A stretch of DNA of 34,699 nt from Gallionellales bacterium GWA2_55_18 (GTDB lineage Bacteria; Pseudomonadota; Gammaproteobacteria; Burkholderiales; Gallionellaceae), in assembly GCA_001801055.1 (NCBI GenBank), contig MGWP01000050.1, positions 1-34,699 on the forward strand. Direction: 5' to 3'. Shown piece after piece: positions 7,274 through 34,678 of the stretch. Within the stretch, counting starts at the first letter, position 1. The number at the start of each line of letters is the position of its first letter. Below the pieces are notes generated by a model. That model searched no databases, was not told the DNA's origin, and saw nothing but the letters and a program-made list of their open reading frames with translations. A program made the position numbers and the translations under genes.

Positions 7274-7284
7274 CTAATCCTTGA

Positions 7285-7345
7285 TGAAACAACTAGCCAT
7301 TCCACTAAGCTGCCAAAAGACAGCAACCAAGTGGCTGGTTATCCC
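7285..7345 (+). repeat. palindromic core repeat, copy 1
   Basis: This is the first of four copies of a core of about 60 bp (others at 17841, 19401 reversed and 23448). Landmarks are TGAAACAACTAGCCATT at the left and GTGGCTGGTTATCCC at the right; the two halves are partly self-complementary. This copy stands alone downstream of the 143-bp palindrome and is the most diverged from the others in its middle. The remaining intergenic sequence to 7446 shows nothing else I can name. Confidence 0.8.
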
Positions 7346-7458
7346 ACACCAAAAGGCTTCGCTCCACCGTGTCATGGCGCACTGACTGGCAAACGTGCTG
7401 ATTAGATGTATGATGCAAAATAAAATACAAAAAAACACGGGCAATTTAGGAGGCTAAT

Positions 7459-9093
7459 ATGAAAAACTTGAATATTGGTGTCAGGCTTGCCGTTGGCTTC
7501 GCCACCGTAGTGGGATTATTTGCAGTGACTTTAGTGCTGGTAGGAATGGCGCTTTCCAATCTCACAAAAGATGTCAATCAGATCAAGGAAGAAACCCTGC
7601 CGTATGTGCTGATAGTGGAGGAAATGGATCTCAGCCGCTCCGAGGTTCAGCAGTTTCTGACCGATGTTTCAGCCACCCATGACCGGGCTGGCTACAAAGA
7701 GTCCGATGAAGCTGCCAAACGCTTTCTGGACGGCGCGGCCAAATTCAAGCAGATGTACCAGCGCGAAAACGATACCAAGAAACTGAAGCAAATGGAAGTT
7801 ATTGAAGCGCGCTTTAACGCTTTCAACGCCAAAGGGAAGGAAATGGCGGAAGCGTATATCACCAAAGGCCTGGATGCCGGCAATATACTGATGAAAGGCT
7901 CCGATACCGAATCCGGATTTGACAAGGAAAGCGAATCGATTTCCGATGCGCTGACAGAATTCCGCGTACAACAAATATCCGAAGCGCACCAAGTTGTTGA
8001 AGACACGGCAAACGCCGCCAAATCTGCTACCCGCGTAATGATCATCGGTAGCGCGCTGGCTATATTGCTGGCTGCTGTTTTAGCCTTTTTGATTACCCGA
8101 TCCGTCACTATCCCGATGGGCATGATGAAATCGACGATAGTAGACATCGGGAAAAACGGCGATTTTACCCGCCGCATCAAGGTAGCCGGCCACGACGAGG
8201 TCGGCGAAACAGCGCGTTCGTTCAACGAGCTGATGGGCAATCTGCAAACTGCATTTCGCCAGATACATGACAACATAGACAAGGTATTCGATGCGTCCCG
8301 CGCCTTGTCTTCATCCTCCCAGCAGGTTGCCGCTGCCTCTGCGCATCAAAGCGAAGCCGCATCCGCGATAGCAGCAACAGTGGAGCAGGTTACCGTCAGC
8401 ATCAATCATGTCGCGGAAAGCGCGCAGGAAGCATTAACGACCTCCCGCAAATCAGGCGACCTGTCCGACCAAGGCAGCAAAATCATTCATAACACCGCCA
8501 CGGGGATGCAGCAAATTGCCGACACCGTGCGCCAAACGTCCGGCTCTATTGAAAACCTCGGGGAGCAATCCAGCCAAATATCCTCCATTGTCCAGGTCAT
8601 CAAGGAAATTGCCGAACAGACCAATCTGCTGGCCCTGAATGCCGCCATCGAGGCGGCGCGCGCCGGTGAACAAGGGCGCGGTTTTGCGGTGGTAGCCGAC
8701 GAAGTGCGCAAGCTGGCGGAACGCACCGCCATCTCCACCAAGGAAATTTCCCAAATGATTGACGCCATCCAGAACACCGCCAGCATCGCGGTTGCCAGCA
8801 TGTCAAGCGCGGTCACTCAGGTAAGCGGCGGAGCTGCGCTGGCGCAACAGGCGGGCGATGCAATCAATCAGATCAAGGAAGAATCCAATCGTGTAATTGC
8901 AACGGTCAGCGGCATTTCCTCCGCATTGGTGGAGCAAAGCAAAGCCAGCAACGATATCTCCGCACATGTTGAAAAAGTGGCGCAAATGACTGAAGAGAAC
9001 CATGCGGCCACAGAAGCAACAGCCGATGCGGCCAACAACCTCGCGCAACTGGCAGACAGCATGCGCGCTGCAGTAAACCGGTTCAAGGTGTAA
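7459..9093 (+). CDS. methyl-accepting chemotaxis protein
   Basis: This is a transmembrane chemoreceptor that would signal through CheW/CheA. The product is 544 aa. TM1 is at residues 8-30, followed by a helical periplasmic sensor of about 160 residues consistent with a four-helix bundle. TM2 is at about 193-213 and the HAMP domain at about 214-268, including [15 protein letters not shown]. The cytoplasmic coiled-coil hairpin has its highly conserved tip at about 383-423 ([20 protein letters not shown], then [17 protein letters not shown]). The C-terminus ends in NRFKV and lacks the NWETF-type CheR/CheB tether. A strong Shine-Dalgarno, TAGGAGG at 7447-7453, precedes the ATG. No che genes lie nearby, so it is an orphan receptor; the ligand is unknown. 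Confidence 0.96.
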
Positions 9094-9123
9094 TTCCATT
9101 TCCAAATTGAAAATGCTATTTCA

Positions 9124-9170
9124 AGGGTGCGTTCCACGCACCATTTGCACTGGTGCGTGGAACGCACCCT
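9124..9170. repeat. 20-bp perfect hairpin repeat
   Basis: AGGGTGCGTTCCACGCACCA (9124-9143) is followed by a 7-nt loop and its exact reverse complement (9151-9170). It lies 30 bp after the chemoreceptor stop. No T tract follows, so it is better described as a dispersed hairpin repeat than as a textbook terminator, although a stem this strong could end transcription or protect the 3' end. Confidence 0.85.
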
Positions 9171-9240
9171 ACGTGATTATTATTGTTTCAAAATAGAATT
9201 GGTATAACACCGGACTAACCGGATTCAAATGCAGGTCTGG

Positions 9241-9333
9241 CTGCGACCCAACCCGCAACACCAACCCTTTGAGATATGCCTCTTCCGGAAAGCTGAGCAG
9301 CAACGGATGGTCGGCACTGGCATGCAGATGATG
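9241..9333 (-). pseudogene. displaced 3' end of rlmI
   Basis: This segment encodes, in the minus direction, HHLHASADHPLLLSFPEEAY and then LKGLVLRVG, the C-terminus of RlmI. Aligned by eye with the end of the intact gene (16934-17023), 79 of 90 positions agree. The 11 differences give seven synonymous codon changes, two replacements (Val to Leu, Gly to Glu) and loss of the stop codon (TAG to TCG). The excess of synonymous changes means the two copies diverged while both were functional, so this is not simply a recent local duplicate left to decay. It starts 6 bp beyond the stop of the TacT-like toxin gene and marks the left edge of the accessory block. Confidence 0.85.
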
Positions 9334-9338
9334 TAGTC

Positions 9339-9815
9339 TTATGTCTTTGCTGACAGGAACAACAGCAACGGATTATCCGGGGATGCTTCGAAGCCGAAGC
9401 GTCGATAGTAGCCTGCAGCTTGCCCGTCGAGGGCATCAACGAACAGCCCGATGCCGCCAGCCTCAGTATAGATTCGCTGTGCCCGGATCAGTGCATCGAC
9501 CAGCAGCAATTCGCCGAGGCCTTTGTTCTGATATTGCCTATCGACAGCCAAGCGACCCAGCCGTACTCCAGGAATGCGGCGTGGCAACTTTTTCCGCCAT
9601 GCTTCCGGTAGGTGATGGTTTTCGAGCTCAGCCAAAGTCAGCGCGTAATAGCCGCAAATTAAATCCGGTGCTTCCTCGCGGGCGGCGACAAAGGTTTTCG
9701 ATAACCCCTTGTCCTGATGCTGGCGGGCAACCTGCCGCAGCCAGTCGTTCAGTTCCTGACGACCGCAATCGAACCCCTGCCGGTTATGGTTTCCAGCTAA
9801 AGGAAGAATCCGCAT
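9339..9815 (-). CDS. TacT-type GNAT acetyltransferase toxin
   Basis: TacT-family toxins acetylate the amino group of charged aminoacyl-tRNA and block translation. The 158-aa product has the family's N-terminal GFDCGRQELNDWLRQVA (residues 14-30), the acetyl-CoA loop in RLAVDRQYQNKGLG (88-101), and the C-terminal AAGYYRRFGF (133-142), which holds the tyrosine used as general acid. All key positions look intact. It overlaps the upstream DUF1778-like antitoxin gene by 32 bp, the usual gene order and coupling for this toxin-antitoxin type. The stop lies directly against the displaced rlmI fragment. I leave the symbol empty because several related names (tacT, ataT) are in use. Confidence 0.9.
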   Translation of the reverse strand: MRILPLAGNHNRQGFDCGRQELNDWLRQVARQHQDKGLSKTFVAAREEAPDLICGYYALTLAELENHHLPEAWRKKLPRRIPGVRLGRLAVDRQYQNKGLGELLLVDALIRAQRIYTEAGGIGLFVDALDGQAAGYYRRFGFEASPDNPLLLFLSAKT

Positions 9816-10095
9816 CGCCTCGCTGGGCCTTCTGGTAGCGCTTCATGGCAGCCTTCAACTTGGCATTTGGCTTGGGCGGATTCTCAATCAATTCGAGCAG
9901 CCAGTTCCAGTCGCGCGGCGACAAGCGAATGACATCTGCCCGTTCGATAACAGCCTGCGCCTCCTTCAGTGCCGATTGCACCAGAAATTGATTGACTGTT
10001 GCACCCGTCAATTCAGCGGCCCGACACAGTGTTTCATAGACCTCATGGGGGACGCGAGCGCCGATGCGGTCTTGCTTGGCAATGGTGGTTCCCAT
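9784..10095 (-). CDS. DUF1778 ribbon-helix-helix antitoxin (TacA-like)
   Basis: The antitoxin binds operator DNA through an N-terminal ribbon-helix-helix and neutralises the GNAT toxin through its C-terminal tail. The product is 103 aa from this start. KQDRIGARVPHEVYETLCRA carries the DNA-binding strand and first helix, and TGATVNQFLVQSALKEAQAV the second. The tail has IRLSPRDWNWLLELIENPP, the typical toxin-contact region of DUF1778. I prefer ATG 10095 because the Shine-Dalgarno AAGGAGG at 10107-10101 lies 5 nt before it; the adjacent ATG at 10098 would be only 2 nt away. A longer frame reaching 10143 would start upstream of this ribosome-binding site. Confidence 0.9.
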   Translation of the reverse strand: MGTTIAKQDRIGARVPHEVYETLCRAAELTGATVNQFLVQSALKEAQAVIERADVIRLSPRDWNWLLELIENPPKPNAKLKAAMKRYQKAQRGDADSSFSWKP

Positions 10096-10124
10096 CATCT
10101 CCTCCTTAATAATCAAGGGCAGCA

Positions 10125-10155
10125 AGTGTACCATTGTCGCCAAAATGACGCCAAA
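10125..10155 (-). promoter_or_regulatory. candidate tacAT promoter and operator
   Basis: On the minus strand TTGGCG (10154-10149) and TACACT (10130-10125) are spaced by 18 bp, a plausible sigma-70 promoter about 30 bp before the antitoxin start. On the plus strand CGCCAAA occurs at 10138-10144 and again at 10149-10155, 11 bp apart, one helical turn. Such in-phase direct repeats suit a ribbon-helix-helix autorepressor. Confidence 0.5.
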
Positions 10156-10348
10156 TGATTTTCAGATGTTTATGATTGGGTTGGCAGAGATAAAGAGAAA
10201 ATACTGTACAACTAAGCGGAGCCATTTCTGTACCGATCCGTGAAACCCTGTTTGTCACCTTCGTCCCAGGCAATATGTGCGCCAATAAATGCAGTATTAA
10301 ATACATTTATTTGTTTGTTTTTAACTGATTGCCAAACGCAAACAATAT

Positions 10349-10374
10349 CAATTGCAAATTACCTGCCAATTGCC
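10349..10374. promoter_or_regulatory. CAATTGC direct repeat next to promoter
   Basis: CAATTGC at 10349-10355 recurs as CAATTGCC at 10367-10374, 18 bp apart, the second copy ending 2 bp before the -35 box of the plus-strand run. It is a candidate operator for the ribbon-helix-helix-like product of the first gene. This is inference from position only. Confidence 0.3.
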
Positions 10375-10375
10375 A

Positions 10376-10404
10376 TTGACATGTCCTTTCGAGCTATGGA
10401 TAAT
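10376..10404 (+). promoter_or_regulatory. strong sigma-70 promoter of accessory run
   Basis: TTGACA (10376-10381) and GATAAT (10399-10404) are separated by exactly 17 bp, close to consensus. The predicted start site is near 10411, about 25 nt before the first gene. It is the clearest promoter in the window. Confidence 0.75.
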
Positions 10405-10435
10405 ACATCCATCGAACAACAGGAGACTTGAGAAT

Positions 10436-11086
10436 ATGGAAATAATTAAAAAAATCGCAGTCAAGGTTTGGCAACCTGTGATTGACAAACTCGACAAAAA
10501 AATTGAATCGGGATGTTTAAGACGCGATGCCTACATAGGCAAAGTGTTAGCAATTGAATTGGAGCGGCTTGATGAAGAAATAACGCAACCCAATTCCACA
10601 GCAGCGCGCGATTTTGTAGCGGCGAAGTTGAATCTGCTCAATCGTAAAGTGGTTACCTTCTCACTGCGAGCTGATCTGATTGATAGGCTGGATAAAATCT
10701 GCAACGAAAAGCGAATTGTCCGTGATGCCATCTTTAATCGTATTCTTCTGTTACTGACGGCAACACCACCACAGATTGATCGGCTGCTTCTTTTGGATAG
10801 TGATTGGCGAAATACAGTTTGGATGGCGCACGGTTGTGATTGGAGTTTCTTTCCAAACATATTTTATCCACTGGAGCCGAATGTTGATCCGTTCTGGGTA
10901 ATACGTGAGGGTATCAAGTTAACTAATTCAGCAACTGGCTCGGATAATTCGTTTTATCGGGCTGTGCTGACAGACAAACATTTCAAGAGCGCAGACATTT
11001 GGGGCTTGAATTGTTATCTCCCTGACGAGTACGTGCCAAATACACCTGTTAGGCAGAAATTTTTAGACGATTTAGACGATCTATAA
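10436..11086 (+). CDS. tandem RHH-like protein, first gene of accessory run
   Basis: I do not recognise this 216-aa protein by name. The N-terminal half looks like two ribbon-helix-helix units. Unit one is KIAVKVWQPVIDKLDKKIE with LRRDAYIGKVLAIELERL. Unit two is RKVVTFSLRADLIDRLDKIC with IVRDAIFNRILLLLT, which has a clear strand-helix-helix pattern. The C-terminal half (DSDWRNTVWMAHGCDWSFF to the acidic end LDDLDDL) is rich in Trp and Phe and may bind a partner protein. ATG 10436 is preferred over upstream in-frame ATGs because AGGAGA at 10421-10426 lies 9 nt before it and the promoter lies inside the longer frame. Inferred role: autoregulator or antitoxin-like partner for the downstream genes. 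Confidence 0.7.
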   Translation: MEIIKKIAVKVWQPVIDKLDKKIESGCLRRDAYIGKVLAIELERLDEEITQPNSTAARDFVAAKLNLLNRKVVTFSLRADLIDRLDKICNEKRIVRDAIFNRILLLLTATPPQIDRLLLLDSDWRNTVWMAHGCDWSFFPNIFYPLEPNVDPFWVIREGIKLTNSATGSDNSFYRAVLTDKHFKSADIWGLNCYLPDEYVPNTPVRQKFLDDLDDL

Positions 11087-11105
11087 CAATTATGAGGAGC
11101 ATAAA

Positions 11106-11390
11106 ATGAGTCATGTCACCAGCAAACATGCAGTCATTCGGGCGCAGCAACGCGGTATTCCGCCGTTCATAGATCAGTTGCTTGATCTATATGGAATGGA
11201 GCAGTACGACGGCTGCGGCGGCGTAGTTCTTTATCTGGACAAGGGTAGCATTCGACGCATGGAGCGAGACATGGGACGTGAACCTGTCCGTCGGTTGTCA
11301 ACATGGCGTAACGCATACAAGGTGAAGAGCAGTCTTGACGGCTGTACGATTACTACCGGACTTCGCAGTGAACGGATTTGGAGGAAATAA
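11106..11390 (+). CDS. DUF4258-like small protein
   Basis: The 94-aa product begins SKHAVIRAQQRGIPPFIDQL, resembling the opening of DUF4258 proteins (His, Arg and RGI positions). It ends with a two-strand pattern NAYKVKSSLDGCTITTGLRS followed by an Arg-rich tail. This small alpha/beta layout is similar in size to RelE/ParE-like toxins, and it follows a ribbon-helix-helix-like gene by 19 bp, so a toxin-antitoxin-type relationship is possible but unproven. A good ribosome-binding site (GAGGAG at about 11093-11098) precedes the ATG. Its stop overlaps the next start by one base (TAATG), indicating translational coupling. Confidence 0.7.
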   Translation: MSHVTSKHAVIRAQQRGIPPFIDQLLDLYGMEQYDGCGGVVLYLDKGSIRRMERDMGREPVRRLSTWRNAYKVKSSLDGCTITTGLRSERIWRK

Positions 11391-11956
11391 TGAATTACAC
11401 AATCGACTCGAATAATTTACTGATAGAACTTCGGCATACTGAGCATGCAATTGATGCTGCGGAGACCTTGATTCAAACACTAAAAGCAAAACAAGCAAGC
11501 ATAACTAAAATTCTTGATGAAATAACTCGGCCACCCAAAAGGAGTATACGAGAAATACTTGAAGAAGCGAAAGCACACGCCAATCAATCTCATGCCACAA
11601 CAGAAAAAGTAAAAATCGGTTTTGAAATCCATGGGGAGTTTGTTGAATGCACCAGTTGTTTGGATATTCACCGAAAGTTTCTAAAGAGGATGTGGAAAGA
11701 TTTTCCTAATCAGCGCGAGGCTATGGCATCAGCAGTTAAAAGGGTTGGAAACAATAGACAGTACATTTCAAAGGAGCGAGAAAATCTCTTTAAGTGGAAA
11801 GATGCGTGGTGGGTCAGGAAGCATAGCCGAGAGCTGTCAGATGGCTGGTATTTCGACATCAATGTCACACCAGAACGCATCAAGAGGATCTTGCCAATTA
11901 TTGTCAGCACCATAGGTCTAAAATGGGACGCAGATGTTGTTATTACTTGGAGTTAA
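11390..11956 (+). CDS. unrecognised 188-aa protein of accessory run
   Basis: I cannot assign a family. Residues 8-50 (LLIELRHTEHAIDAAETLIQ, then TLKAKQASITKILDEI) look like an alpha-helical coiled coil. The middle contains a Cys pair (CTSCLD) and a basic segment. The C-terminal half is rich in Trp (FKWKDAWWVRKHS, DGWYFDINV) and ends ITWS. The start is ATG 11390 with GGAGGA just upstream; an in-frame ATG at 11378 lies inside the ribosome-binding region and the previous gene. The protein is basic overall in the middle, so nucleic-acid binding is possible. It is followed after 73 bp by the helicase gene on the same strand, and by context is probably part of the same system. Confidence 0.65.
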   Translation: MNYTIDSNNLLIELRHTEHAIDAAETLIQTLKAKQASITKILDEITRPPKRSIREILEEAKAHANQSHATTEKVKIGFEIHGEFVECTSCLDIHRKFLKRMWKDFPNQREAMASAVKRVGNNRQYISKERENLFKWKDAWWVRKHSRELSDGWYFDINVTPERIKRILPIIVSTIGLKWDADVVITWS

Positions 11957-12029
11957 GCCTTGGCTCAATTAGGTAAATTTATTCAGTAAAAAATGAAAGC
12001 CGACGAATGTTTCCACAAAAAAGGAAAAT

Positions 12030-15000
12030 ATGACCTCACCTCGTGATCTGCTTAAAGGTTTACTGGAATATATCGAAGAGCAAGCAAAAGAAATTGACCC
12101 GAGAGGCTATCGCATCTCTGATGCTAAGGGATTCGTACGTCGCAATACTGACTTGGCGGGACTACCCGGCCTTGAGTTTGATCTTCGCCCAGAAGGTGAC
12201 CACATTTGGTTGCGGCTGGCGCGTATCGAAGCCCATATCCCGCCAGTTGTCCCTGATCTATTCAAGGGCTTATTCAAAATCAGCAATGACCCGTTTGGTG
12301 CGCAGCCCTCCTTGGATGAAGGCTATCTAGCGACCTGGATGCGCAGTGTGATCAAGCTTGAGCCTCAGTCGGCAGAGACTTATGACGCAAAGCTGAGACA
12401 AGAGCAGTTGATGCAGAAAGCCCAAGCAGCCCTCCAAGAATACTTGCCTCAATGGAAAGCTTGGGCTGAGAGCGAACGTCCGCGCCGCAAGAGCATTTCC
12501 CTCTATGGTGATCTGTTCGCTTTGAAGCACCAGATTGGAGCAGAAGAAACAGCCAATCCACAAGAATTTGTATGGGGCATAGGTGTTGCGTCATGGCAGA
12601 TTCCGTTCGTGGAAAGCCCCGTCAACTTTGAATATCCGATGCTCACCCAAGCCGTTGAAATATCCATAGACGAGAATAGCATGGCACTGGAGGTTCGCCC
12701 CCGTGCTACCGATACGCGGGTGGAAATGGCAGCGTTTGTCGCTTGTTCGGTTATTGGGGCTGCTGATGTTGAACACGATATCAAGGAGCAGCTTCAAAGG
12801 CATAAAGACTGTCCAGTTACCCCATTTGATTCTTCGAGCTATACCGATGTCCTAAAACTCGTCGGGTCAAGCCTTGATAGCAAAGGGAGCTACCGAGAGA
12901 TACTCACAAAAGGTGAGCCGATTCCTGCTGCTGGCACCGACTTGATAGTTACGGATGCCTGGGTTCTATTTTCACGACCGCGCAACAATCACTATATAAC
13001 GGATGACCTGCAACGCTTGAAGGACAAGCTGGATTCTGGGTGCGATATTCCAGTTGGCCCGCTTGCCCTTGTTACCCCGCCTTCAGATGAACCCGTTGAA
13101 CACGAGGCCATTCATTTCAGGGGATTGTCGAGTCGCGGATCAAGTCACGGTAAATCTGAAGAGCTTTATTTCCCTCTGCCCTATAACGAAGAGCAGGTCA
13201 CTATTATTCAACGGCTGGAAAAAGCAGCCGGTGTCGCTGTGCAAGGGCCACCAGGCACCGGAAAGACACACACCATCGCCAACGTCATTTGTCACTACCT
13301 GGCAACAGGCAGGAGAGTACTCGTCACCTCGCGGGGCGAACCCGCACTTGAGGTACTGCAGTCCAAAATTCCAGAAGAGGTGCGATCTTTAACTGTGGCG
13401 CTTATGGCTAGTGACCGCGAAGGTGTCCGCCAATTTCAAGCGTCAATCGAGGCAATTCAGCATCAGGTATCCCAGTTAAATCCGGAACAGATACGCCAAG
13501 CCATCGCAACACTGGAAGGTGCAATTGACCGCGCCCACCATGAACTTGCTTCCATTGACAAACGCATTGACGAAATTGCGATTGTGCAACTTTCAGAAGT
13601 TAAGGTTGATGGCGTACCGATGCGCGCACAGAAGCTTGCTGAGTTGGTCATTTCCGGCTTGGAACAGCACGGCTGGTTTGATGATGACATTACGCTTTCG
13701 CCCGAAAATGCGCCTCCACTATCCGAAGATGAGGCAGGTAAACTTCGTGAAGCACGGCGGAAGGTAGGGCAGGATTTGGTTTATGTACAGGCCAATTGCC
13801 CGTCCGCTGACTCACTTCCTGCAACAACCGCAATCGCCGAGTTGCATGAAGTGTTATCCAGTATGCGGATGATCGAGGCTGAGGTTGAGCGGGGTGACCT
13901 CCCTGATCTTAAGGCTACAACTGCCGAAGTAATCATTGCAGCAAGAGAGCTTCTCAATCTAGTCGAAGAAGCCAAGGCATTGGTCGAGGAACTGGAGGCC
14001 GCCGATGGTGGTTGGCCCCTTGACGTGCGCATAAAATGCCAACTACGGTCGACTGTTTCCGAACGGCAAGCACTTGAGTCTTTATTTACGGACATTGACG
14101 CACTCACTGAGGCGCGCGCTGAGTTCCTCAAGCGACCAGTTGACTTCCCCGATGCAGGCTTGCGTACTGTCAAGACGCGGGAAGCTGTTGCCCGTGCAGT
14201 CGAGACCGGGAAGCCATTTGGTTTTATTTCTCTTGGAACAGGAGAGGCGAGAGAGCATATTGCTGCCGTCAGAGTTTCAGGACTCTCACCCGCGTCGATA
14301 GACGACTGGGTTCATGTGCAACGACACATCGTGCTTCACGAACAAGTAGTGTCTTTTGTGAGTCGTTGGAATCAATTTGCTGACGAGCTTTCCATCCCCC
14401 GCCTGGAAGGTGGTGTCTCTGCTTTGCGCCGAATCGAAATGGTTACCACCTTAGCAAAAAAAGCACACCGGCTGGCTACAGAATTTGATACCGCAATACC
14501 CAAGAAGGCCGAGGCCGTATTCTCCTCGCCTCCCGGCAGGGGTTGGATGGGCAGCTCTGCCAAACTTCATGAAGTTAAGACCCAATTACTACGCCACCTT
14601 ACCAAGACGGAGTTGTCCAAAGCGGCAACCCAGCTCAGCACTTTGCAGGAAAAACTTGCTGGCAAGACAGGGCCGATGTCGATTGCGTTAAAGCAGTTCG
14701 TCGAAAAGCAACTTGGAAATCTGGGCATTCCTTCTGATCGTGCAGCAGCACAATATGCAGAACTGACGGCAGAACTAAGGCGTATTGCCTCAATGACAGT
14801 TGAACTCACACGAATCAAAGATTACGCCGCCCGTATTGAGCAGGCGGGAGCACCTAAACTGGCATCTCGCATCCGTTCTCAGCCGGTTGAAATGTCGGGT
14901 GAAGATACCTTTTTTCCTGTTACTTGGCGGCAAGCATGGAATTGGGCTCGTATGAGGACTCACCTTGACAATATTGAGGCTCGCAACGAATTGATTGCTT

Positions 15001-16601: not shown

Positions 16602-16610
16602 GTAATAGAA

Positions 16611-16916
16611 ATGACTGCTCCGTTAAATGCCAAGCAACAGCAAAATAAAGTAGCCAATCAATCCGGGCGATTTCGCGGTGCGCTGCTAGGCATGGCCTGC
16701 GGCGATGCGGTCGGCACAACCGTGGAATTTAAACCGCGAGGCACATTTCCGCTCGTCACCGATATGGTGGGTGGTGGGCCGTTCAAACTTAAACCCGGCG
16801 AATGGACTGACGACACATCTATGGGGCTATGCTTGGCTACCAGTCTTGTGGAGTATGGGCAGTTTGACGCAACAGATCAGATGCGCAGATATGTGAAGTG
16901 GCGCGATGAAGGCTAG
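16611..16916 (+). pseudogene. truncated ADP-ribosylglycohydrolase
   Basis: Only 101 residues remain of a family that is normally about 250-350 aa. The N-terminal ARH/DraG signature is intact: FRGALLGMACGDAVGTTVEF (21-40) and GEWTDDTSMGLCLA, with the metal-binding Asp-Asp-Thr-Ser at 67-70. The frame then ends at WRDEG-stop, where homologues continue (WRDEGY...), and the C-terminal metal-binding aspartates are missing, so activity is not expected. The truncation point lies 18 bp from the rlmI stop, i.e. at the right edge of the accessory block. It starts 9 bp after the helicase stop, so the intact ancestor was probably co-transcribed with it. A short product may still be made. Confidence 0.8.
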
Positions 16917-16933
16917 CCACCCTACAAACACTA

Positions 16934-18433
16934 CTACCCAACCCGTAGCACCAACCCCTTGAGATATGCCCCTTCCGGAAAGCTGAGCAGCACTGGATGA
17001 TCGGCGCTGGCGTGCAGGTGATGCACGATCTGCGCATCCACGCCGGCATCGAGCGCGGCACCGGCGATAATCTTCTGGAACAGGTCTGCGCTGATGCCGC
17101 CGGAGCAGGAATAGGTTGCGAGCAGTCCACCCGGCCTGAGCAGCTTGAAGCCGAGCAGGTTGATGTCCTTGTAACCGCGCGCGGCCTTTTCGGCAAAGGC
17201 GGCAGTGGGCGCAAACTTGGGTGGATCGAGGATAATGAGGTCGAAGGATCTGCCTTGGTCGCGCAGCTTGCGCAATGCTTGGAACACGTCCGCCTCTTGC
17301 CATTCGGCACGTGTTGCATCCAGGCCATTGTTTAATAAATTTTGTTCGGCATTGCGTAGCGCATCGCCCGATGCGTCGATCGACAGCACCGATTTTGCGC
17401 CACCGCGTAGCGCATACAGCGAGAAGCCTCCGGTGTAGCAGAAGCAGTTCAGCACATCGCGGCCAGCAGCCAGTGTTTCTGTCAGCGCGCGGTTGTCGCG
17501 CTGGTCGAGATAGAAGCCGGTCTTCTGCCCAGCCGCGACATCCACCTTGAAGCGCAGGCCGTTCTCTACTACCTCCACGCCATCCGGCAACATGCCGCGC
17601 AGCACGCCGTTGCGCGGCTCCAGCCCTTCCAGTCCGCGTGAATCGGAATCGGAGCGCTCGTAGATGCATAAGGGATTGCATAGTTCTTGCAGGATGCCAA
17701 CGATGATGTCGCGCCAGCGTTCCGCACCCGCGCTGCCGATCTGCATCACCAGCGTATCGCCATATCGGTCGGCAATTAATCCCGGCAGCCCGTCCGATTC
17801 GGCGTGGATCAGGCGCAACCCCTCTCCCCCAGCCCCTCCGATAAAACCCCTAGCCATTCGACTAGGCTGGCAAAAAACTCCAGCCAAGTCGCTGGTTATC
17901 CCGCCTGCGGGAGAGGGGAGCAGAGCGTCGCGCGCCGCCAGCGCATTGGCAATACGGCGGCGAAAAAACTCTGCGTCAATGACCTCCTCTTCACGCCACG
18001 ACCAGACACGCGCGGTGATTTGCGAACTGGCGTTGTACGCCGCCCAAGCGAGAAAATTTCCCGAAGCGTCGCGCACTGGCAGCGTGTCACCGCTAAGAGG
18101 CACGCCATCCACGCGTTCGACCGCGCCGGAAAAAATCCACGGATGGCGGCGCAGCAAGGATTTTTCCCGCCCCGCCCTGAGGGTGATGCCGGGTTGCGCA
18201 GTAGCGGAGCCAACGTGAAATTGCGGTGCGCTGCGTGCAATACTCTTTTGCTCGCCGGACTGTTTCTCGTCGCGCTTGGTTCGGTTGCGAAAATCCCGGT
18301 TGCCTTGCGAGGGGCGTCCCCTCTCCTCAATCCTCTCCCGCTCACGGGAGAGGAAGCGATCGTCCTTTCTCCCCTTGGGAGAAGACTGTGATGATGACGG
18401 TGTCGAATGTGGTTTGGGTTTCTGGGTGGTCAT
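16934..18433 (-). CDS. rlmI: 23S rRNA m5C1962-type methyltransferase RlmI
   Basis: RlmI methylates C1962 of 23S rRNA using SAM. The product is 499 aa against about 396 in E. coli. The conserved protein starts near ITLRAGREKSLLRRHPWIFS (PUA domain), then HAESDGLPGLIADRYGD, the SAM-binding NCFCYTGGFSLYALRGG, the catalytic LDPPKFAP, and TYSCSGG with the second cysteine. Two extra pieces explain the length. One is a basic, low-complexity N-terminal extension of about 85 residues containing a repeat-encoded SRERERIEERGR. The other is a repeat-encoded insertion of about 33 residues between ARDALL and LRLIHAESDG. Both are in frame and no key motif is broken, so the enzyme may work. Start 18433 lies 22 bp after the xerC stop; a longer frame to 18607 only overlaps xerC. 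Confidence 0.9.
   Translation of the reverse strand: MTTQKPKPHSTPSSSQSSPKGRKDDRFLSRERERIEERGRPSQGNRDFRNRTKRDEKQSGEQKSIARSAPQFHVGSATAQPGITLRAGREKSLLRRHPWIFSGAVERVDGVPLSGDTLPVRDASGNFLAWAAYNASSQITARVWSWREEEVIDAEFFRRRIANALAARDALLPSPAGGITSDLAGVFCQPSRMARGFIGGAGGEGLRLIHAESDGLPGLIADRYGDTLVMQIGSAGAERWRDIIVGILQELCNPLCIYERSDSDSRGLEGLEPRNGVLRGMLPDGVEVVENGLRFKVDVAAGQKTGFYLDQRDNRALTETLAAGRDVLNCFCYTGGFSLYALRGGAKSVLSIDASGDALRNAEQNLLNNGLDATRAEWQEADVFQALRKLRDQGRSFDLIILDPPKFAPTAAFAEKAARGYKDINLLGFKLLRPGGLLATYSCSGGISADLFQKIIAGAALDAGVDAQIVHHLHASADHPVLLSFPEGAYLKGLVLRVG
17819..17918 (+). repeat. nested palindromic repeat inside rlmI (core copy 2)
   Basis: CCCCTCTCCC (17819-17828) and GGGAGAGGGG (17909-17918) are perfect terminal inverted arms of one repeat family. 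Inside them, at 17841-17902, lies core copy 2 (CTAGCCATTCGACTAGGCTG ... GCCAAGTCGCTGGTTATCCC). The 99-bp addition is a multiple of three and opens no stop codon in the rlmI frame. Confidence 0.85.
18318..18353. repeat. CCTCTCC hairpin repeat in rlmI N-terminus
   Basis: CCTCTCCCG (18332-18340) and CGGGAGAGG (18345-18353) form a perfect hairpin with a 4-nt loop, preceded by CCCCTCTCC at 18318-18326. This is the same family as the outer arms at 17819-17918 and 23427-23520, here without the nested core. It encodes SRERERIEERGR in RlmI. Confidence 0.75.
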
Positions 18434-18455
18434 ATCTTTTCTTTGGTATTTTTTC

Positions 18456-19364
18456 TTAGGTCTTTTTCTTGGCGCGCGGATGCGCCGCGTCGTAAATCTT
18501 GCTGAGATACTGGAAATCGAGGTGCGTATAAACCTGCGTGGTGGAGATGCTGGCGTGGCCGAGCATTTCCTGCACCGCGCGCAAGTCACCGCTGGATTGC
18601 AGCACATGGGTGGCGAACGAATGGCGCAGCAAATGCGGATGCACGTTGCTGGTAATGCCCTGTTTGATGCCCCATTGCTTCATGCGCAGTTGCACCACGC
18701 GCGGCGAGATGCGGCTGCCGCGCTGCCCGACGAACAGTGCGGTTTCGCCCGCATTGGCGAACTGGTCGCGCACCGCCAGCCAGGCCTGCAACGCGGTGAT
18801 GGCGTGGCTGCCGAGCGGTACGATGCGCGTTTTGCTGCCCTTGCCGGTAACGCGCACTTCGCCCGCGTTCAGGTCGGCTCGCATCGGTTCAAGCTCAAGG
18901 CCGACCAGCTCGGCCAAACGCAGACCGGAGGAGTAGAACAATTCGAACATCGCCTTGTCGCGGATCGCTTCCGGCGTATCGGCGGGCAAATTGACCATGC
19001 GCACCGCCTCGTCTGGCGACAGGGCTTGCGGCAGGTTCTTCGGCGATTTGGGCGCGCGCAGGCCTACGCAGGGGTTATCGGATAGACCATAGTCGCGTAT
19101 CAAATAAGTGAAAAAGCCGCGCCACGCTGACAACATACGCGCCAGCGAACGACCACCCGAACCCTTGCTGTGCAGTTGCGCGATAAAACGGCGGATGTGA
19201 TGATGCTTAAGGTTAGTCAGCGGCGTGGCGGCAGCCAGCTCGAACAGATGCCCGATGTCGCGCGCATAATTTTCGGCGGTCAGCGCGGAGTATTGCTTCT
19301 CGTTGCGCAGCCACGCCAGATAGCCGTTCAGATATTGATGATTAGGTGCTGCAGCATCGGTCAT
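18456..19364 (-). CDS. xerC: tyrosine recombinase XerC
   Basis: XerC acts with XerD at dif to resolve chromosome dimers. The product is 302 aa. The SAM-like core-binding domain is N-terminal (LNGYLAWLRNEKQYSALTAE and HHIRRFIAQLHSKGSGGRSL). The catalytic set is complete: Arg in SSGLRLAELVG, Lys in VTGKGSKTRIVPLG, His-x-x-Arg in HPHLLRHSFATHVL, His in LGHASISTTQ and the nucleophile Tyr in VYTHLDF. Start ATG 19364 gives the standard length; the frame open to 19541 consists of repeat-derived sequence. Gene order dapF-DUF484-xerC is conserved, but here a 347-bp repeat-filled gap separates DUF484 from xerC. Confidence 0.95.
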   Translation of the reverse strand: MTDAAAPNHQYLNGYLAWLRNEKQYSALTAENYARDIGHLFELAAATPLTNLKHHHIRRFIAQLHSKGSGGRSLARMLSAWRGFFTYLIRDYGLSDNPCVGLRAPKSPKNLPQALSPDEAVRMVNLPADTPEAIRDKAMFELFYSSGLRLAELVGLELEPMRADLNAGEVRVTGKGSKTRIVPLGSHAITALQAWLAVRDQFANAGETALFVGQRGSRISPRVVQLRMKQWGIKQGITSNVHPHLLRHSFATHVLQSSGDLRAVQEMLGHASISTTQVYTHLDFQYLSKIYDAAHPRAKKKT

Positions 19365-19395
19365 AACGAATGGGCGATTCCAAATAATTCCACAG

Positions 19396-19471
19396 GGGCG
19401 CGATTTAACCGGCAACTTGGCTGGCATCTCTTGCCAGTTTAGTCGAATGGCTATGCAAAGCCATCGCGCCC
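19396..19471 (-). repeat. nested palindromic repeat upstream of xerC (core copy 4)
   Basis: GGGCGCGAT (19396-19404) and ATCGCGCCC (19463-19471) are perfect arms of a palindrome that occurs unfilled at 34657-34677. Between them, read on the minus strand, lies the core (TAGCCATTCGACTAAACTGG ... CAGCCAAGTTGCCGGTTA), about 19401-19457. Confidence 0.8.
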
Positions 19472-19501
19472 TTTTTGGATGCATGAATAAACATGAAAAA
19501 A

Positions 19502-19630
19502 CAGTTGTCCACGAAAGCCACGAAATGTGACAAGCAGGCATTTACCACAATGCGGAAGTTCATAAAAAATTAACAGTGCTCCACACCGCCAATGAATACC
19601 CAATGTGTGGGACGCCAAGTCAATGCAACT
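19502..19630 (-). repeat. dispersed intergenic repeat, shared with 27742-27834
   Basis: Read on the minus strand it starts AAGTTGCATTGACTTGGC, contains CATTGGGTATTCATTGGC, and ends CTTTCGTGGACAACTG. The copy at 27742-27834 shares the start, middle and end but is about 35 bp shorter. Neither contains a gene. Confidence 0.7.
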
Positions 19631-19691
19631 TATTGTTCTTCCGTGCCTTTCGTGTTTTTCGTGGATGAATTACCGTTTTTAGGATGAATCA

Positions 19692-19711
19692 GGGCGCGAT
19701 GAACCGCACCC
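19692..19711. repeat. GGGCGCGAT half-degenerate palindrome
   Basis: GGGCGCGAT-GA-ACCGCACCC is an imperfect version of the palindrome whose perfect arms flank core copy 4 and which recurs at 34657-34677. It directly abuts the DUF484 stop codon at 19712. Confidence 0.6.
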
Positions 19712-20338
19712 CTACGATATGAGATGCGGGTGCAATGCGCTGCTTACCGCTTCGGCGATGCGCTCCAAAAATACCGTGCCCATCTCCGGGTAGAAACGCT
19801 GTTTGTCTTCGCTGGACAGCACCAGCAGGCCGATGGTTTCGCTGCCCGCGTGCAGCGGCAGGTAAGCGAACGAATGCAGCTGCGCGGCAGTTTCGCCGAA
19901 CCAGCCAGAGGTGTCGTGCATGGCATGGTGCAAGCAGACCGGTTGCCCCTGCGCATCGGCGAACGCCAGCACTTCCGCGCTGGGCGGGTTGACTTGCCAC
20001 AATTGCAACGCCGTATGCGGCACAGAAAAAATATCGCGCAACAGGTGCGGGATCATTTCCCGCAAAGTAGCCAGATCGCGCGCGGCAAACAGCGCGACAA
20101 CGAATTCATGCACCTTGTGTTGCAGCGCATCGTTCATTTTGGCGAATTCGATCAGTTCGTGCAGTTTTTTTTCCAGCTCCTTGTTCTTGTCGCGCAACGC
20201 CAGCAACTGCCGTTCGCTTAATGAAACCATGCGCCCACCATGTGGATGCGGCAAAGTGATTTGCGCCAGTGTATCGATGTGCTGTTCAAAAAACTGCGGG
20301 TTGTCCTGCAAATATTGTGCGACGTCTTCCGATCTCAT
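19712..20338 (-). CDS. DUF484 family protein (YigA-like)
   Basis: The 208-aa product matches the DUF484 family in length and layout. The N-terminal helical segment is SEDVAQYLQDNPQFFEQHID. It is followed by HPHGGRMVSLSERQLLALRD and a coiled coil at about 45-70 (KNKELEKKLHELIEFAKMN). The C-terminal two thirds form a GAF-like domain ending VLSSEDKQRFYPEMGTVFLE. The function is not established; its fixed position between dapF and xerC is the main clue. A Shine-Dalgarno AGGGAG overlaps the dapF stop region and lies 5 nt before the ATG, so translation is probably coupled to dapF (9-bp gap). Confidence 0.92.
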   Translation of the reverse strand: MRSEDVAQYLQDNPQFFEQHIDTLAQITLPHPHGGRMVSLSERQLLALRDKNKELEKKLHELIEFAKMNDALQHKVHEFVVALFAARDLATLREMIPHLLRDIFSVPHTALQLWQVNPPSAEVLAFADAQGQPVCLHHAMHDTSGWFGETAAQLHSFAYLPLHAGSETIGLLVLSSEDKQRFYPEMGTVFLERIAEAVSSALHPHLIS

Positions 20339-20347
20339 CGTGGCTCC

Positions 20348-21178
20348 CTATAGAATAATTTCGCCTTCAAATACCGTTATCGCCGGGCCGGTCATCAGCA
20401 CCGGCTGGCCTTCCCCGCCCCACGCAATAATCAACGCGCCGCCACGTGTCGCGACATTGACCGGGCTGTCGAGCAAACCGCGCCGGATGCCCGACACCGC
20501 TGCCGCACAGGCCCCGGTGCCGCACGACAGGGTTTCGCCCGAGCCGCGTTCATATACGCGCAAACGGACATGCTGGCGATCCATCACTTGCATAAAACCG
20601 GCATTGACGCGCTTGGGAAAACGCGGGTGATGCTCGATGAGCGGCCCCAGTTTTTCCACCGGCGCATGCTCGACATCCGCCACCACTTGCGCCGCATGCG
20701 GATTGCCCATCGACAGCGCGCTGATTTCCAGCATCTCTCCTGCCACATTCAACGGCTCGCTCGCCGCGCCACTGCCGCCGTCGAACGGAATGAGCGCGGC
20801 ATCGAAAACCGGCGCCCCCATATCAACCGTCACGCGCCCGTCGTCTTCGAGGCGCGGCCTGATCAGGCCGCTCTTGGTTTCCACCGTTATTTCACGTTTC
20901 GACGTGAGCCGCTTGTCGTGAACAAAGCGCGCGAAACAGCGTGCGCCATTGCCGCATTGTTCCACTTCGCCGCCGTCGGTATTGAAAATACGGTAGCGGA
21001 AATCGGCCTCGGGGTGCTGCGCCCTCTCCACCAGCAATATCTGGTCGCAGCCTACGCCGAAATGCCGGTCGGCAAGCAGGCGCAACTGCTCCGGGCTGAG
21101 TTCAATGTGCTGGCGTACCCCGTCCAGCACCACGAAGTCGTTGCCTGCGCCGTGCATCTTGGTAAATTTCAGCAGCAT
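20348..21178 (-). CDS. dapF: diaminopimelate epimerase DapF
   Basis: This PLP-independent racemase converts LL- to meso-diaminopimelate for lysine and peptidoglycan synthesis. The 276-aa length is normal. The two catalytic cysteines are present: Cys75 in [11 protein letters not shown] and Cys219 in [10 protein letters not shown]. Other family landmarks are [13 protein letters not shown] at 7-19, [12 protein letters not shown] and SMGNPHAA. It lies 21 bp downstream of tag and 9 bp upstream of DUF484 on the same strand, so tag-dapF-DUF484-xerC-rlmI probably form one transcription unit, with the caveat of the repeat-filled gap before xerC. Confidence 0.98.
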
Positions 21179-21199
21179 TTCCGATCATTCCTTTTTGGA

Positions 21200-21808
21200 T
21201 TATCCCTTTTTGCCGCTTAATTCGGCATGCCTGAAGCAATTCACGGTATGGTCGTTCACCATGCCGGTCGCCTGCATGTGTGCGTAGCAAATCGTCGTGC
21301 CGACAAACTTGAATCCGCGCCGTTTTAACTCTTTGCTCATCATATCCGACTCGGGTGTGCTCGCCGGTACATCAGCGGGGCTGCGCCATACATTCTGTTT
21401 CGGTGCGCCGCCGACAAATTGCCAGATAAATTTCGAAAAACTGCCGAACTCATCCTGCACATCGAGAAATTTTTTCGCGTTGGTCACCGCTGCTTCGATT
21501 TTCAGGCGATTGCGCACAATGCCCGCATCCTGCAACAGCGATTCTATTTTATCAGCGCCATAACGGGCAATGCGTGTCGCGTCAAAATCATCGAAGGCGG
21601 CGCGGTAATTTTCGCGCTTGCGCAAAATAGTGATCCAGCTTAAACCCGCCTGTGCGCCTTCCAGAATCAGAAATTCGAACAGGCGCTGATCGTCATACAA
21701 CGGCACACCCCATTCGCAGTCGTGATAAGCCTGGTACAGGGCATCGTTACCCGCCCACGCGCAGCGCGGTTTAGAAGCAGAAATCGAGATTATGGGAATT
21801 GGATTCAT
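21200..21808 (-). CDS. tag: DNA-3-methyladenine glycosylase I (Tag)
   Basis: Tag removes 3-methyladenine from alkylated DNA to begin base-excision repair. The 202-aa product aligns well by eye with E. coli Tag. The zinc ligands correspond to Cys16 (RCAWAGND), His29 (YHDCEWG), His187 and Cys191 (NDHTVNCFRH). The helix-hairpin-helix region and the LEGAQAGLSWITILRKRENY segment are conserved, as is KRRGFKFVGTTICYAHMQA. It has about 12 extra N-terminal residues compared with E. coli. It is first in the probable tag-dapF operon. Confidence 0.96.
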   Translation of the reverse strand: MNPIPIISISASKPRCAWAGNDALYQAYHDCEWGVPLYDDQRLFEFLILEGAQAGLSWITILRKRENYRAAFDDFDATRIARYGADKIESLLQDAGIVRNRLKIEAAVTNAKKFLDVQDEFGSFSKFIWQFVGGAPKQNVWRSPADVPASTPESDMMSKELKRRGFKFVGTTICYAHMQATGMVNDHTVNCFRHAELSGKKG

Positions 21809-21930
21809 AACTTATGGGAACATCAAAATTTATTTTGCGGACGAATCGATATGCAAGCGGCAAGCTGGCCTACCAGCCCGCAAAAAGCAAATTATGACAA
21901 CTCCCTTATGCTCGCAGAATTGCAGGGAAA

Positions 21931-23289
21931 TCAGTTTTTAGCCGGTGGCCTGCACAGCAGTGCGGCAATTTGTTTTTTGGGTTTGCCCGGGTCAAACTTG
22001 TCGGTGCCAAAAAAGGGGTGCTCTTCGATTTTTGCGGCGGACGGGGAAGGTTCATAAGGTTTAAGGAACCAGTCATCAACCGGTGCGGATTTTTTGGCAT
22101 AGACCTGCGAGGCAGGCTTGGCCGTCCGGTGGCTGGAGGATGCGCGCGATGACGGCGAAACTGTCGCCCGTTCGCGTGAAAATGAGCGTTTGAGCAGTTT
22201 CTCGATATCGACCAGCCGCCGTTCTTCTTCACCATCCACCAGCGATATTGCTTCGCCGCTGGCGCCTGCGCGCCCGGTGCGCCCGATGCGGTGAACATAG
22301 TCCTCTGCGTTAGTCGGGAGTTCATAATTGACCACCAGCGGCAACTGGTCGATATCCAGCCCTCGTGCGGCAACATCGGTCGCTACCAGCGCGGTAATCT
22401 TGCCTTCCTTGAACGCGTCCAGCGCCTTGATGCGCTCCAGTTGGGTCTTGTCGCCGTGGATGGCATCGGCGGGTATGCCCTCGCGCTCCAGCTTGCGCGC
22501 CAAGCGCGCCGCAGTCAGCTTGGTGCGGGTAAAGACCAGCGCCTGACTGCCGAGCCCGCGAGAGCGAAGCAGATCGGCCAGTACGTTGAATTTATTGTCC
22601 TGATCCACCATGAGAACGGATTGCTTGACGTTTTCTGCCGCAGTGTTGCGGCGTTCCGCTTCGACAGTGATCGGGTTAACAAGGAAATCCTGCGCGAGCT
22701 TTTTGATGTCGTCGGAGAACGTGGCCGAAAACAGTAGGGTCTGGCGTTGTTTGGGCAACAGCGTGAGAATACGCTTGAGATCGGGCATAAAACCCATGTC
22801 CAGCATGCGGTCTGCCTCGTCCAGAATCAGCACCTGCACCTGATTGAGCATCAGGTTGCGGCTTTCGACGTGATCCAGCAAGCGACCGGGTGTTGCCACC
22901 AGAATTTCCACGCCCTTCATCAGCTCGGGTTTTTGCGTTTTGATATCGACGCCGCCAAATACCACGGTGGAGCGCAACGGCACATGCCTGGAGTAAGTTT
23001 CCACGCTTTTTTCGACCTGGATCGCCAGCTCGCGCGTCGGTGCCAGAACCAGCGCGCGGATCGGGTGACGTGCCGGAGAGGCGCTGGTGCTGGCATGCGG
23101 CAGCAAGCGCTGCAACAGCGGCAGCGTGAACGCCGCCGTCTTGCCGGTGCCGGTCTGCGCCATCGCCATCAGGTCGCGGCCCGCCAGAACATGAGGGATG
23201 GCCTGCGCCTGAATCGGCGTCGGCTCGGTATAGCCCTCATCTTCAATGGCGCGCAGAATCTGCGGGTCGAGATTAAGGGATGAAAACAT
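21931..23289 (-). CDS. rhlE: DEAD-box ATP-dependent RNA helicase RhlE
   Basis: The 452-aa product has all DEAD-box motifs in order: Q motif [14 protein letters not shown], motif I AQTGTGKT, Ia [52 protein letters not shown] and [10 protein letters not shown]. The C-terminal tail of about 80 residues is basic and low in complexity, typical of RhlE-type RNA tethers. I chose ATG 23289 ([15 protein letters not shown]) because it matches the canonical RhlE N-terminus. A TATAAT on the minus strand (23332-23327) lies just upstream; with the alternative ATG at 23316 the transcript would be nearly leaderless. It follows a 122-bp gap from tag and is probably a separate unit. Confidence 0.95.
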
Positions 23290-23424
23290 TACTTTAGTTA
23301 CTGCCGGATCTGCCATAAGAGGCGGCATTATACCGGATTGCTGGGGCGCTTGGCGGTTACTAATTTAGTCACAAAGTTCAGCCGGGGGAATGATACGCTC
23401 CCTGTGCGGCGAAGTTAACGGCGG

Positions 23425-23520
23425 CCCCTCTCCCCAACCTCTCCGGGTGAAACAACTAGCCATCCGACTAGGCTGCAAACGACCGCAGCCAAGTCGCTGG
23501 TTATCCCGCAAGGGGAGAGG
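23425..23520 (+). repeat. nested palindromic repeat between rhlE and slt (core copy 3)
   Basis: CCTCTCCCC (23427-23435) and GGGGAGAGG (23512-23520) are perfect outer arms. The core lies at 23448-23507 (TGAAACAACTAGCCATCC ... CCAAGTCGCTGGTTATCCC). The rest of the 341-bp gap 23290-23630 holds only the candidate promoters of rhlE and slt. Confidence 0.85.
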
Positions 23521-34639: not shown

Positions 34640-34655
34640 CTCATTTTCAGACTGT

Positions 34656-34678
34656 AGGGACGCGATTCATCGCGCCCT
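34656..34678. repeat. unfilled GGGCGCGAT palindrome
   Basis: AGGGACGCGATTCATCGCGC and the following CCT form a near-perfect palindrome. It is the empty form of the repeat that flanks core copy 4 at 19396-19471 and lies beside the TPM gene start. Confidence 0.7.

Follow-up and report, generated by a model that had tools for sequence, protein, structure and literature searches.

A small mobile hairpin of about 60 nucleotides inserted at C|T steps in the genomes of Gallionella relatives

The window analysed here, the whole 34,699-nucleotide stretch of contig MGWP01000050.1 (positions 1 to 34,699; assembly GCA_001801055.1) from Gallionellales bacterium GWA2_55_18, carries four copies of a mobile core: a 60-nt repeat made up of a 12-nt leader (TGATGRAACWAC) and a covarying 48-nt hairpin. 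The original prediction of four core copies within about 16 kb of the window is borne out for all four, with the limits of the element revised. Three of the copies were said to be enclosed by the arms of a different palindrome, and so they are; the enclosing palindrome is of the CCCCTCTCC/GGAGAGGGG type in copies 2 and 4, and is GGGCGCGAT/ATCGCGCCC, a repetitive extragenic palindrome (REP), in copy 3. Both host palindromes also occur in the window without the core (18318-18353 and 34654-34677), again as described. In the following list, R1 is the covariance model of the element and A4 an alignment of its copies; type A copies have the TGATGRAACWAC leader and type B copies the leader GCTTTGCA, and the host palindromes and empty hosts are delimited from the sequence itself.

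7282..7341, + strand: type A copy 1; leader 7282-7293, hairpin 7294-7341 (R1 match 7280-7341, E 3.0e-20; alignment A4)
16934..18607, - strand: RlmI-type 23S rRNA methyltransferase gene, open reading frame (ORF) of 557 aa, start possibly further in
17819..17918: host palindrome of copy 2, within the same RlmI-like gene; arms 17819-17827 and 17910-17918
17839..17898, + strand: type A copy 2; leader 17839-17850, hairpin 17851-17898 (R1 match 17837-17898, E 6.4e-20)
18318..18353, + strand: empty CCCCTCTCC-type host, with the vacant C|T at 18335|18336
19396..19471: host of copy 3; REP arms GGGCGCGATT (19396-19405) and CATCGCGCCC (19462-19471)
19406..19461, - strand: type B copy 3; leader 19454-19461, hairpin 19406-19453 (R1 match 19406-19468, E 1.7e-12)
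23427..23520: host palindrome of copy 4; arms 23427-23435 and 23512-23520
23444..23503, + strand: type A copy 4; leader 23444-23456, hairpin 23457-23503 (R1 match 23443-23503, E 6.1e-20)
34654..34677, + strand: empty GTAG-REP, GTAGGGACGCGATTCATCGCGCCC, the empty GTAG-tagged form of the copy-3 host

Copy 1 has no enclosing host palindrome. Copy 2 lies in frame within the RlmI-like gene, which is encoded on the opposite strand, as judged from orthologous empty and filled sites and from protein alignment; the best NCBIfam match of this ORF (E 1e-126, 423 bits) is under the curated cut-off of the model. Copy 3 is probably situated directly upstream of the start of xerC, near 19364.

Many iron-oxidising relatives of Gallionella have tens of copies of the hairpin. 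The genome that contains the window comprises 78 contigs (1.69 Mb; completeness 71.5%). A search of it with the core pattern, allowing up to three mismatches, gave 73 matches compared with 7 for a reversed-pattern control, and R1, built from 35 copies, gives at least 86 matches at E<=0.01, a lower bound because 150 of 698 candidates were scored; by these two counts, the repeat is not due to chance. In a first draw of genomes, matches were found in 35 of 37 from the same genus (own genome included), with 1 to 91 listed per genome and none in G023 and G036, and in none of the 24 from other families. An order-wide draw, with 13 candidates scored per genome, yielded matches in 29 of 399 genomes and 13 of 158 genera, and a class-wide draw with a broader model yielded a single copy in each of 4 of 369 genomes besides our own. 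Among the 80 stretches listed with organism names, of at least 119 that matched, most are labelled Gallionella, Sideroxydans, Gallionellaceae or Nitrosomonadales, and a few Sulfuricella, Sulfuricaulis, Gammaproteobacteria or Betaproteobacteria. One window copy searched against plasmids and one searched against phages gave no match, and no Rfam family was matched at gathering score in a scan of five sources. Some copies are closely spaced: two inverted pairs in one relative (genome G027, contig C2, 77550/77672 and 155975/156097) have an equal spacing of 122 bases and resemble a duplicated bacterial interspersed mosaic element (BIME), and short tandem arrays of head-to-tail hairpins, joined as GGTTA|TAGCCA or GGTTA|TGATG, occur at loci L185, L434, L436, L437, L442, and L443.

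In type A, the leader TGATGRAACWAC is followed by a hairpin of the layout TAGCCA-TT-CGACT-A-AGC..GCC-A-AGTCG-C-TGGTTA, the helices of which are interrupted by a TT/C internal loop and an A.A mismatch. Where a leader could be placed, the element is 60 nt long in 212 of 292 copies, 59 nt in 33, and 54 nt in 25, and position frequencies and the alignment show that the leader mostly ends in CTAC or CAAC. Alignment A4, comprising 30 sequences picked for diversity (including distant ones from other families), has 92.9% of cells paired and 13 of 18 pairs changed on both sides; cells changed on both sides number 71 against 18.9 in shuffles, none of 500 shuffles reaching 71, and the pairing signal is lost when the partners are slid. 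In distant copies the leader is kept while the foot is paired anew, as TAAGCG/TGCTTA or CAGCCA/TGGCTG. An earlier pairing of the stem foot was replaced by TAGCCA/TGGTTA, which pairs 94.1% rather than 89.6% of cells (alignment A2) and covaries in distant copies. In 24 of the 30 rows of A4 the foot retains a G.U pair, with C.A on the other strand; thus, one strand folds better than the other and is preferred.

A sub-type of 16 copies of 59 nt (the ACGAAA sub-type; own genome, e.g., L033 and L045) has the leader TGATGAACTAAC and A as its right flank. Its host repeat is of the CAGTTGTCC|ACGAAAxCACGAAA type, an empty example of which lies in the window at ~19503. A hammerhead-like reading of CUGAUG..GAAA in this sub-type was considered and set aside, as the GAAA is part of the host repeat. 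An autonomous long copy with separated ends was rejected: the 10 orphan left and 21 orphan right halves recovered from 249 sequences appeared by eye to be degenerate, nested, or due to chance.

Empty and filled homologous sites support the reading of the core as the small mobile unit that had been proposed. For 123 of 243 copies the joined flanks match a sampled locus across the junction, and these matches include clean empty sites, but also loose, gapped, and self-overlapping ones. Two of the clean sites are TCGGCGAGGAC|TGTCTGAGCG (93.7% over 175 bases) and TTCATCCCAAC|TGCTGCGTTG (90.2% over 143 bases). The orthologous place of window copy 2 was compared in eleven loci. It is filled in G460 and G021; the palindrome is uninterrupted, and hence without the element, in G018 (CCCTCACCCCGACCCTC|TCCCGCCTGCGGGCGAGGG; L393) and G435 (CCCTCTCCCCCAGCCCCTC|TCCCGCATGCGGGCGAGGGG; L397); five loci (G464, G016, G017, G007, and G008) have other or shortened repeats; G452 has no repeat; and in G463 the left anchor was not found. 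Comparison of G018 and G435 with their filled relatives places the element at the C|T of the palindrome, with nothing duplicated. For window copy 3, neither a filled nor an empty REP was recovered as orthologue from the same loci. A 3-bp target duplication of TCC had been suggested from the junctions; TCC and TATCCC do stand there, but as host sequence, and the suggestion is refuted because empty sites hold these letters once. At type A sites with dissimilar flanks (85 in all), the element is preceded by C in 69 cases, by T in 14, and by A in 2, and it is followed by T in 79, by C in 5, and by A in 1. The target goes with the leader: among 330 distinct copies, 242 of type A and 22 of type B, with 66 that fit neither pattern left out of the count, type B is associated with R|A and type A with C|T (Fisher p 7e-9 and 2e-9).

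The original prediction also held that the element prefers the loop or centre of hairpins, which fails as a general rule for type A and stands for type B, including window copy 3. When the best stem enclosing each of 94 distinct sites (nearly all type A) was scored, mean stem length was 3.70, and 705 further C|T steps taken from these flanks had a mean of 3.68 (p=0.45). Nevertheless, palindromic hosts (arms of at least 7 bp, loop of at most 40) are over-represented, at 20 of the 94 sites versus 26 of 605 control intergenic C|T steps from one relative and the window (p=2e-7). From the stem test and this enrichment together, palindromic repeats appear to be hit above chance, at their C|T step rather than at the loop as such. 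Arms of at least 7 bp are lacking at 74 of the 94 sites, so that at this arm length type A copies lie mostly outside palindromes; the arms are not part of the repeat unit in every copy.

Type B (leader GCTTTGCA) comprises 22 copies, or 11 after removal of those with similar flanks. Of these, 9 have G or A on the left and 10 have A on the right, and 7 of the 11 sites (two of the 11 represent one host type in L366) lie in a loop of at most 14 nt closed by at least 5 bp, a position shared by 246 of the 2000 R|A sites used as controls (p=1e-4). The hosts include GTAG-REPs (window copy 3; L366 in G013; L430 in G102) as well as the apical loops of other copies (L185 twice, L436, and L437). In G102, plain GTAGGAGCCCGATTCATCGGGC REPs flank a match to a Y1 tyrosine transposase, and REPs with type B in the loop occur at 1409, 4036, and 7805 of the same locus (L430), where the position of the REP-associated tyrosine transposase (RAYT) is that of a Pfam match at G102:C15:455258, since translating this RAYT in a single frame gave stops. 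This arrangement suggests that type B may ride, as a hitch-hiker, inside REPs handled by a RAYT. L366 (4424-7520) and L430 (1409-7805) each contain at least three composite GTAG-REP/type B copies, near RAYT genes.

Copies of the element also lie in frame within conserved genes. The RlmI-type methyltransferase gains 20 codons from window copy 2. The RlmI orthologues form a series, with no insert in G452, a palindrome remnant alone in G464 and G008, and palindrome plus element in our own genome and G021. Of the copies with enough flank, 48 of 303 are in a reading frame that stays open to either side for 100 codons or more, a count that includes some chance frames; the share of copies under ORFs was left unused, since chance ORFs cover most of this DNA. 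Thirty of the in-frame ORFs and the window RlmI ORF were scanned for protein families (18 of 50 rows were unscanned, several of these being orthologues or antisense frames of scanned ones), and in 25 of these 31 a conserved family covers the insertion or flanks it on both sides. The hosts include LeuS, UvrC, MutS, formamidopyrimidine glycosylase (MutM), a UvrD-type helicase, and a DEAD/Helicase_C_2 helicase; GlnD, GlnE, SucB, CysS, CoaBC, PrmC, and three Mur ligases; and RND and MFS transporters, a nitrogenase-type protein, histidine kinases, and an AIRS-domain protein that we take to be ThiL-like. The six scanned ORFs without such family support are L091, L088, L020, L345, L095, and L322; for the last of these, a CysS ORF, the N-terminal side alone is reported, and a CysS ORF from another genome (L268) shows both. 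Besides RlmI, our own genome has copies in GlnD (L041), the ThiL-like gene (L001), and a Mur ligase (L030). One leucyl-tRNA synthetase gene (L228, 2830-6315) contains two separate in-frame copies of 18 codons each. DNA-repair and helicase genes recur among the in-frame hosts (UvrC, MutS, MutM, UvrD-type, and DEAD/Helicase_C_2; L083, L319, L170, L089, and L194), and a part of PMC3733652 makes a similar remark on DNA-repair or helicase genes for REPs.

Several known systems resemble the element in part. Like REPs and REPtrons (TnpA-REP, RAYT), it is a short bulged hairpin in high copy number with a 5' tag at the foot, a C|T cut or insertion site (here a junction, not a measured cut), and inverted as well as tandem pairs; as a bulged, high-copy hairpin it agrees with the description in a section of PMC6006769, where REPs range from 21 to 65 nt. 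REPs placed within other palindromes have already been reported (PMC3733652). Unlike a REP, the element has the 12-nt TGATGRAACWAC leader instead of a GTAG (or GTGG) tetranucleotide 5' of the foot, and unlike a REPtron it has no bordering RAYT (tnpA-REP) gene among those found, although type B in GTAG-REPs does lie near RAYTs (L366 and L430); the RAYTs whose sequence was inspected carry GTAG-REPs of their own, unlike the element. With IS200/IS605 elements it shares the lack of target duplication, hairpin ends, a fixed left-flank base, and a leader in guide position, but it has one hairpin rather than two ends, no gene, and no lagging-strand bias (G027, one genome tested). Miniature inverted-repeat transposable elements (ERIC, NEMIS, Nezha, and similar) are likewise small, numerous, and without a transposase gene, but have target-site duplications and separate terminal inverted repeats, which the element lacks. 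The core sites of integron attC have the consensus RYYYAAC / GTTRRRY, and this pair was not seen at the element ends when the consensus was checked by eye. Rickettsia palindromic elements (RPEs), like REPs, are described in a portion of PMC3733652 as palindromes in frame within conserved genes. By description, rather than by RPE sequences, our element is alike in its 25 of 31 scanned ORFs, but differs from RPEs in its host group, in being mostly 60 nt, in its clean C|T insertion, and in that some copies are nested in a second in-frame palindrome (RlmI).

We give a probability of about one half to the reading that the element is a non-autonomous, REP-like mobile hairpin of ~60 nt moved in trans by a single-strand HUH/Y1 transposase. 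The element comprises the 12-nt 5' leader and the bulged 48-nt stem-loop, the 3' foot of which is the exact right end. The enzyme would recognise one strand in its folded, single-stranded form; cleavage would fall at C|T at the left end and at the stem foot (GGTTA|) at the right end, and the strand would then enter a C|T step at a new place with no target duplication. The probable enzyme, working in trans, would belong to the HUH/Y1 tyrosine transposases and be either RAYT/TnpA-REP or IS200/IS605 in kind, and the leader may help to choose the target, type A leading to C|T and type B to R|A. According to PMC8266576, the TnpA-REP of E. coli cuts at a CT on either side (5' or 3') of its REP and requires the stem bulge. 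The data show the limits of the element, the C|T target and its lack of duplication, the hairpin, the association of leader with target, and the in-frame insertions in genes, and from them we infer the single-strand intermediate, the Y1 enzyme, and the guide role of the leader; the enzyme is putative because none is linked to the element, GTAG is absent, and there is no replication-strand bias. The occurrence of nested and head-to-tail copies counts in favour of this reading, and the likeness to TnpA-REP, set against the lack of a bordering Y1 gene, carriers in which Y1 is undetected, and the even orientation, leaves the probability at about one half.

A matching gene of the RAYT or IS200 kind had been suggested as one to look for elsewhere in the genome; Y1 genes do exist in the genus, including long ones (~230-300 aa), but none was found bordered by type A copies. 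The RAYT of our own genome was rejected as a linked partner, as it adjoins its own GTAGGGCGGGC REP. The following points weigh against a Y1 mover or against parts of its proposed mechanism. A good R1 match was present in 2 of 30 and then 3 of 40 Y1-bearing stretches, with no type A on both sides of the gene; these stretches contain 7 R1 matches in 201,548 bases (three forming one composite cluster), where ~3 would be expected at the density of G027. The nearest other copy is 79 bp from a RAYT (G007). Y1 was undetected in G064, G061, and G375 (99% complete, of the same genus, and with at least 9 copies each) and in the carrier G159. Replication-strand (lagging-strand) bias is absent in G027, with 18 versus 18 copies relative to GC skew, for the 36 copies on clear-skew contigs (9 of 45, on C2 and C3, were left out). 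The element lacks the GTAG tag. In A4, one measure of covariation is weak: further pair types number 28 versus 24.7 in shuffles, a count reached by 40 of 500 shuffles. Finally, of the 66 of 330 copies omitted from the leader-target count, 16 are the ACGAAA sub-type, which combines an A-like leader with A on the right in a single kind of host repeat; a strict leader-target rule is thus broken, unless these copies were amplified with their host.

The same lack of a linked Y1 gene, the four carriers in which Y1 is undetected, and the absence of strand bias would fit an element that moves without target duplication by a mover outside the Y1 family, such as another transposase or recombinase that is now rare or lost in many carriers. 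We regard this as possible but doubtful: the C|T site, the foot as right end, the bulged stem, and the 5' tag resemble Y1/REP chemistry, and no such mover was noticed by eye beside the four lone copies from outside the order or in the listed clusters, no targeted search having been made. Somewhat more tentative is a self-addressed hairpin, in which the 5' leader would itself pick the target, with TGATGRAACWAC leading to C|T and GCTTTGCA to R|A (chiefly within hairpin loops), types A and B being two lineages of one scaffold, and the enzyme being either new or from an orphan RAYT class without a known REP. RAYTs of group 1, subclass 2.1, are described in a section of PMC6006769 as having no known REP partner. 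Such a type B lineage would live in the loops of GTAG-REPs and of its own relatives, and the usual 60-nt length together with three open frames would account for spread as a 20-codon in-frame cassette in conserved genes.

Spread mainly via recombination or duplication of larger host repeats, the element itself being no longer mobile, is improbable: composite copies with shared flanks (the ACGAAA sub-type in our own genome; G168 and G128; L366 and L430) are consistent with it, but it is opposed by the 94 distinct sites, by the dissimilar flanks of 85 type A sites, by the vacant host at the copy-2 orthologue, and by a copy inside a copy. Least credible is movement as RNA, whereby a transcript of the hairpin would serve, like a very small retroelement, as template for new DNA at C|T. 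The conserved G.U pair, the conservation of structure on one strand, and the lack of target duplication speak for it, but they fit folded single-stranded DNA as well, and no Rfam family was matched at gathering score in the five sources.

The spread of REP-like palindromes is described as poorly understood in a part of PMC8266576. Both the placement of REPs in palindromes and the occurrence of REPs or RPEs within genes have been published before (PMC3733652). In the open literature searched, no match was found to the four core strings, nor was an account found of an untagged 60-nt hairpin, C|T insertion with orthologous empty sites, a leader-target split, or in-frame nesting in Gallionella relatives. 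Among the sampled loci, related genomes provide ~90 distinct insertion sites whose ends are exact; the two leader types differ in target and no enzyme is obvious, which makes leader-guided targeting directly testable. The in-frame copies in LeuS, UvrC, MutS, GlnD, Mur ligases, and other genes point to the possible carriage of a mobile palindrome as a coding peptide outside Rickettsia, and some linkers in the host proteins may be nested selfish DNA.

Apart from the element, the window contains two 93-base stretches on the same strand that are 87% alike (9241-9333 and 16931-17023), the second at the end of the RlmI-like gene; these possibly represent paralogous genes.

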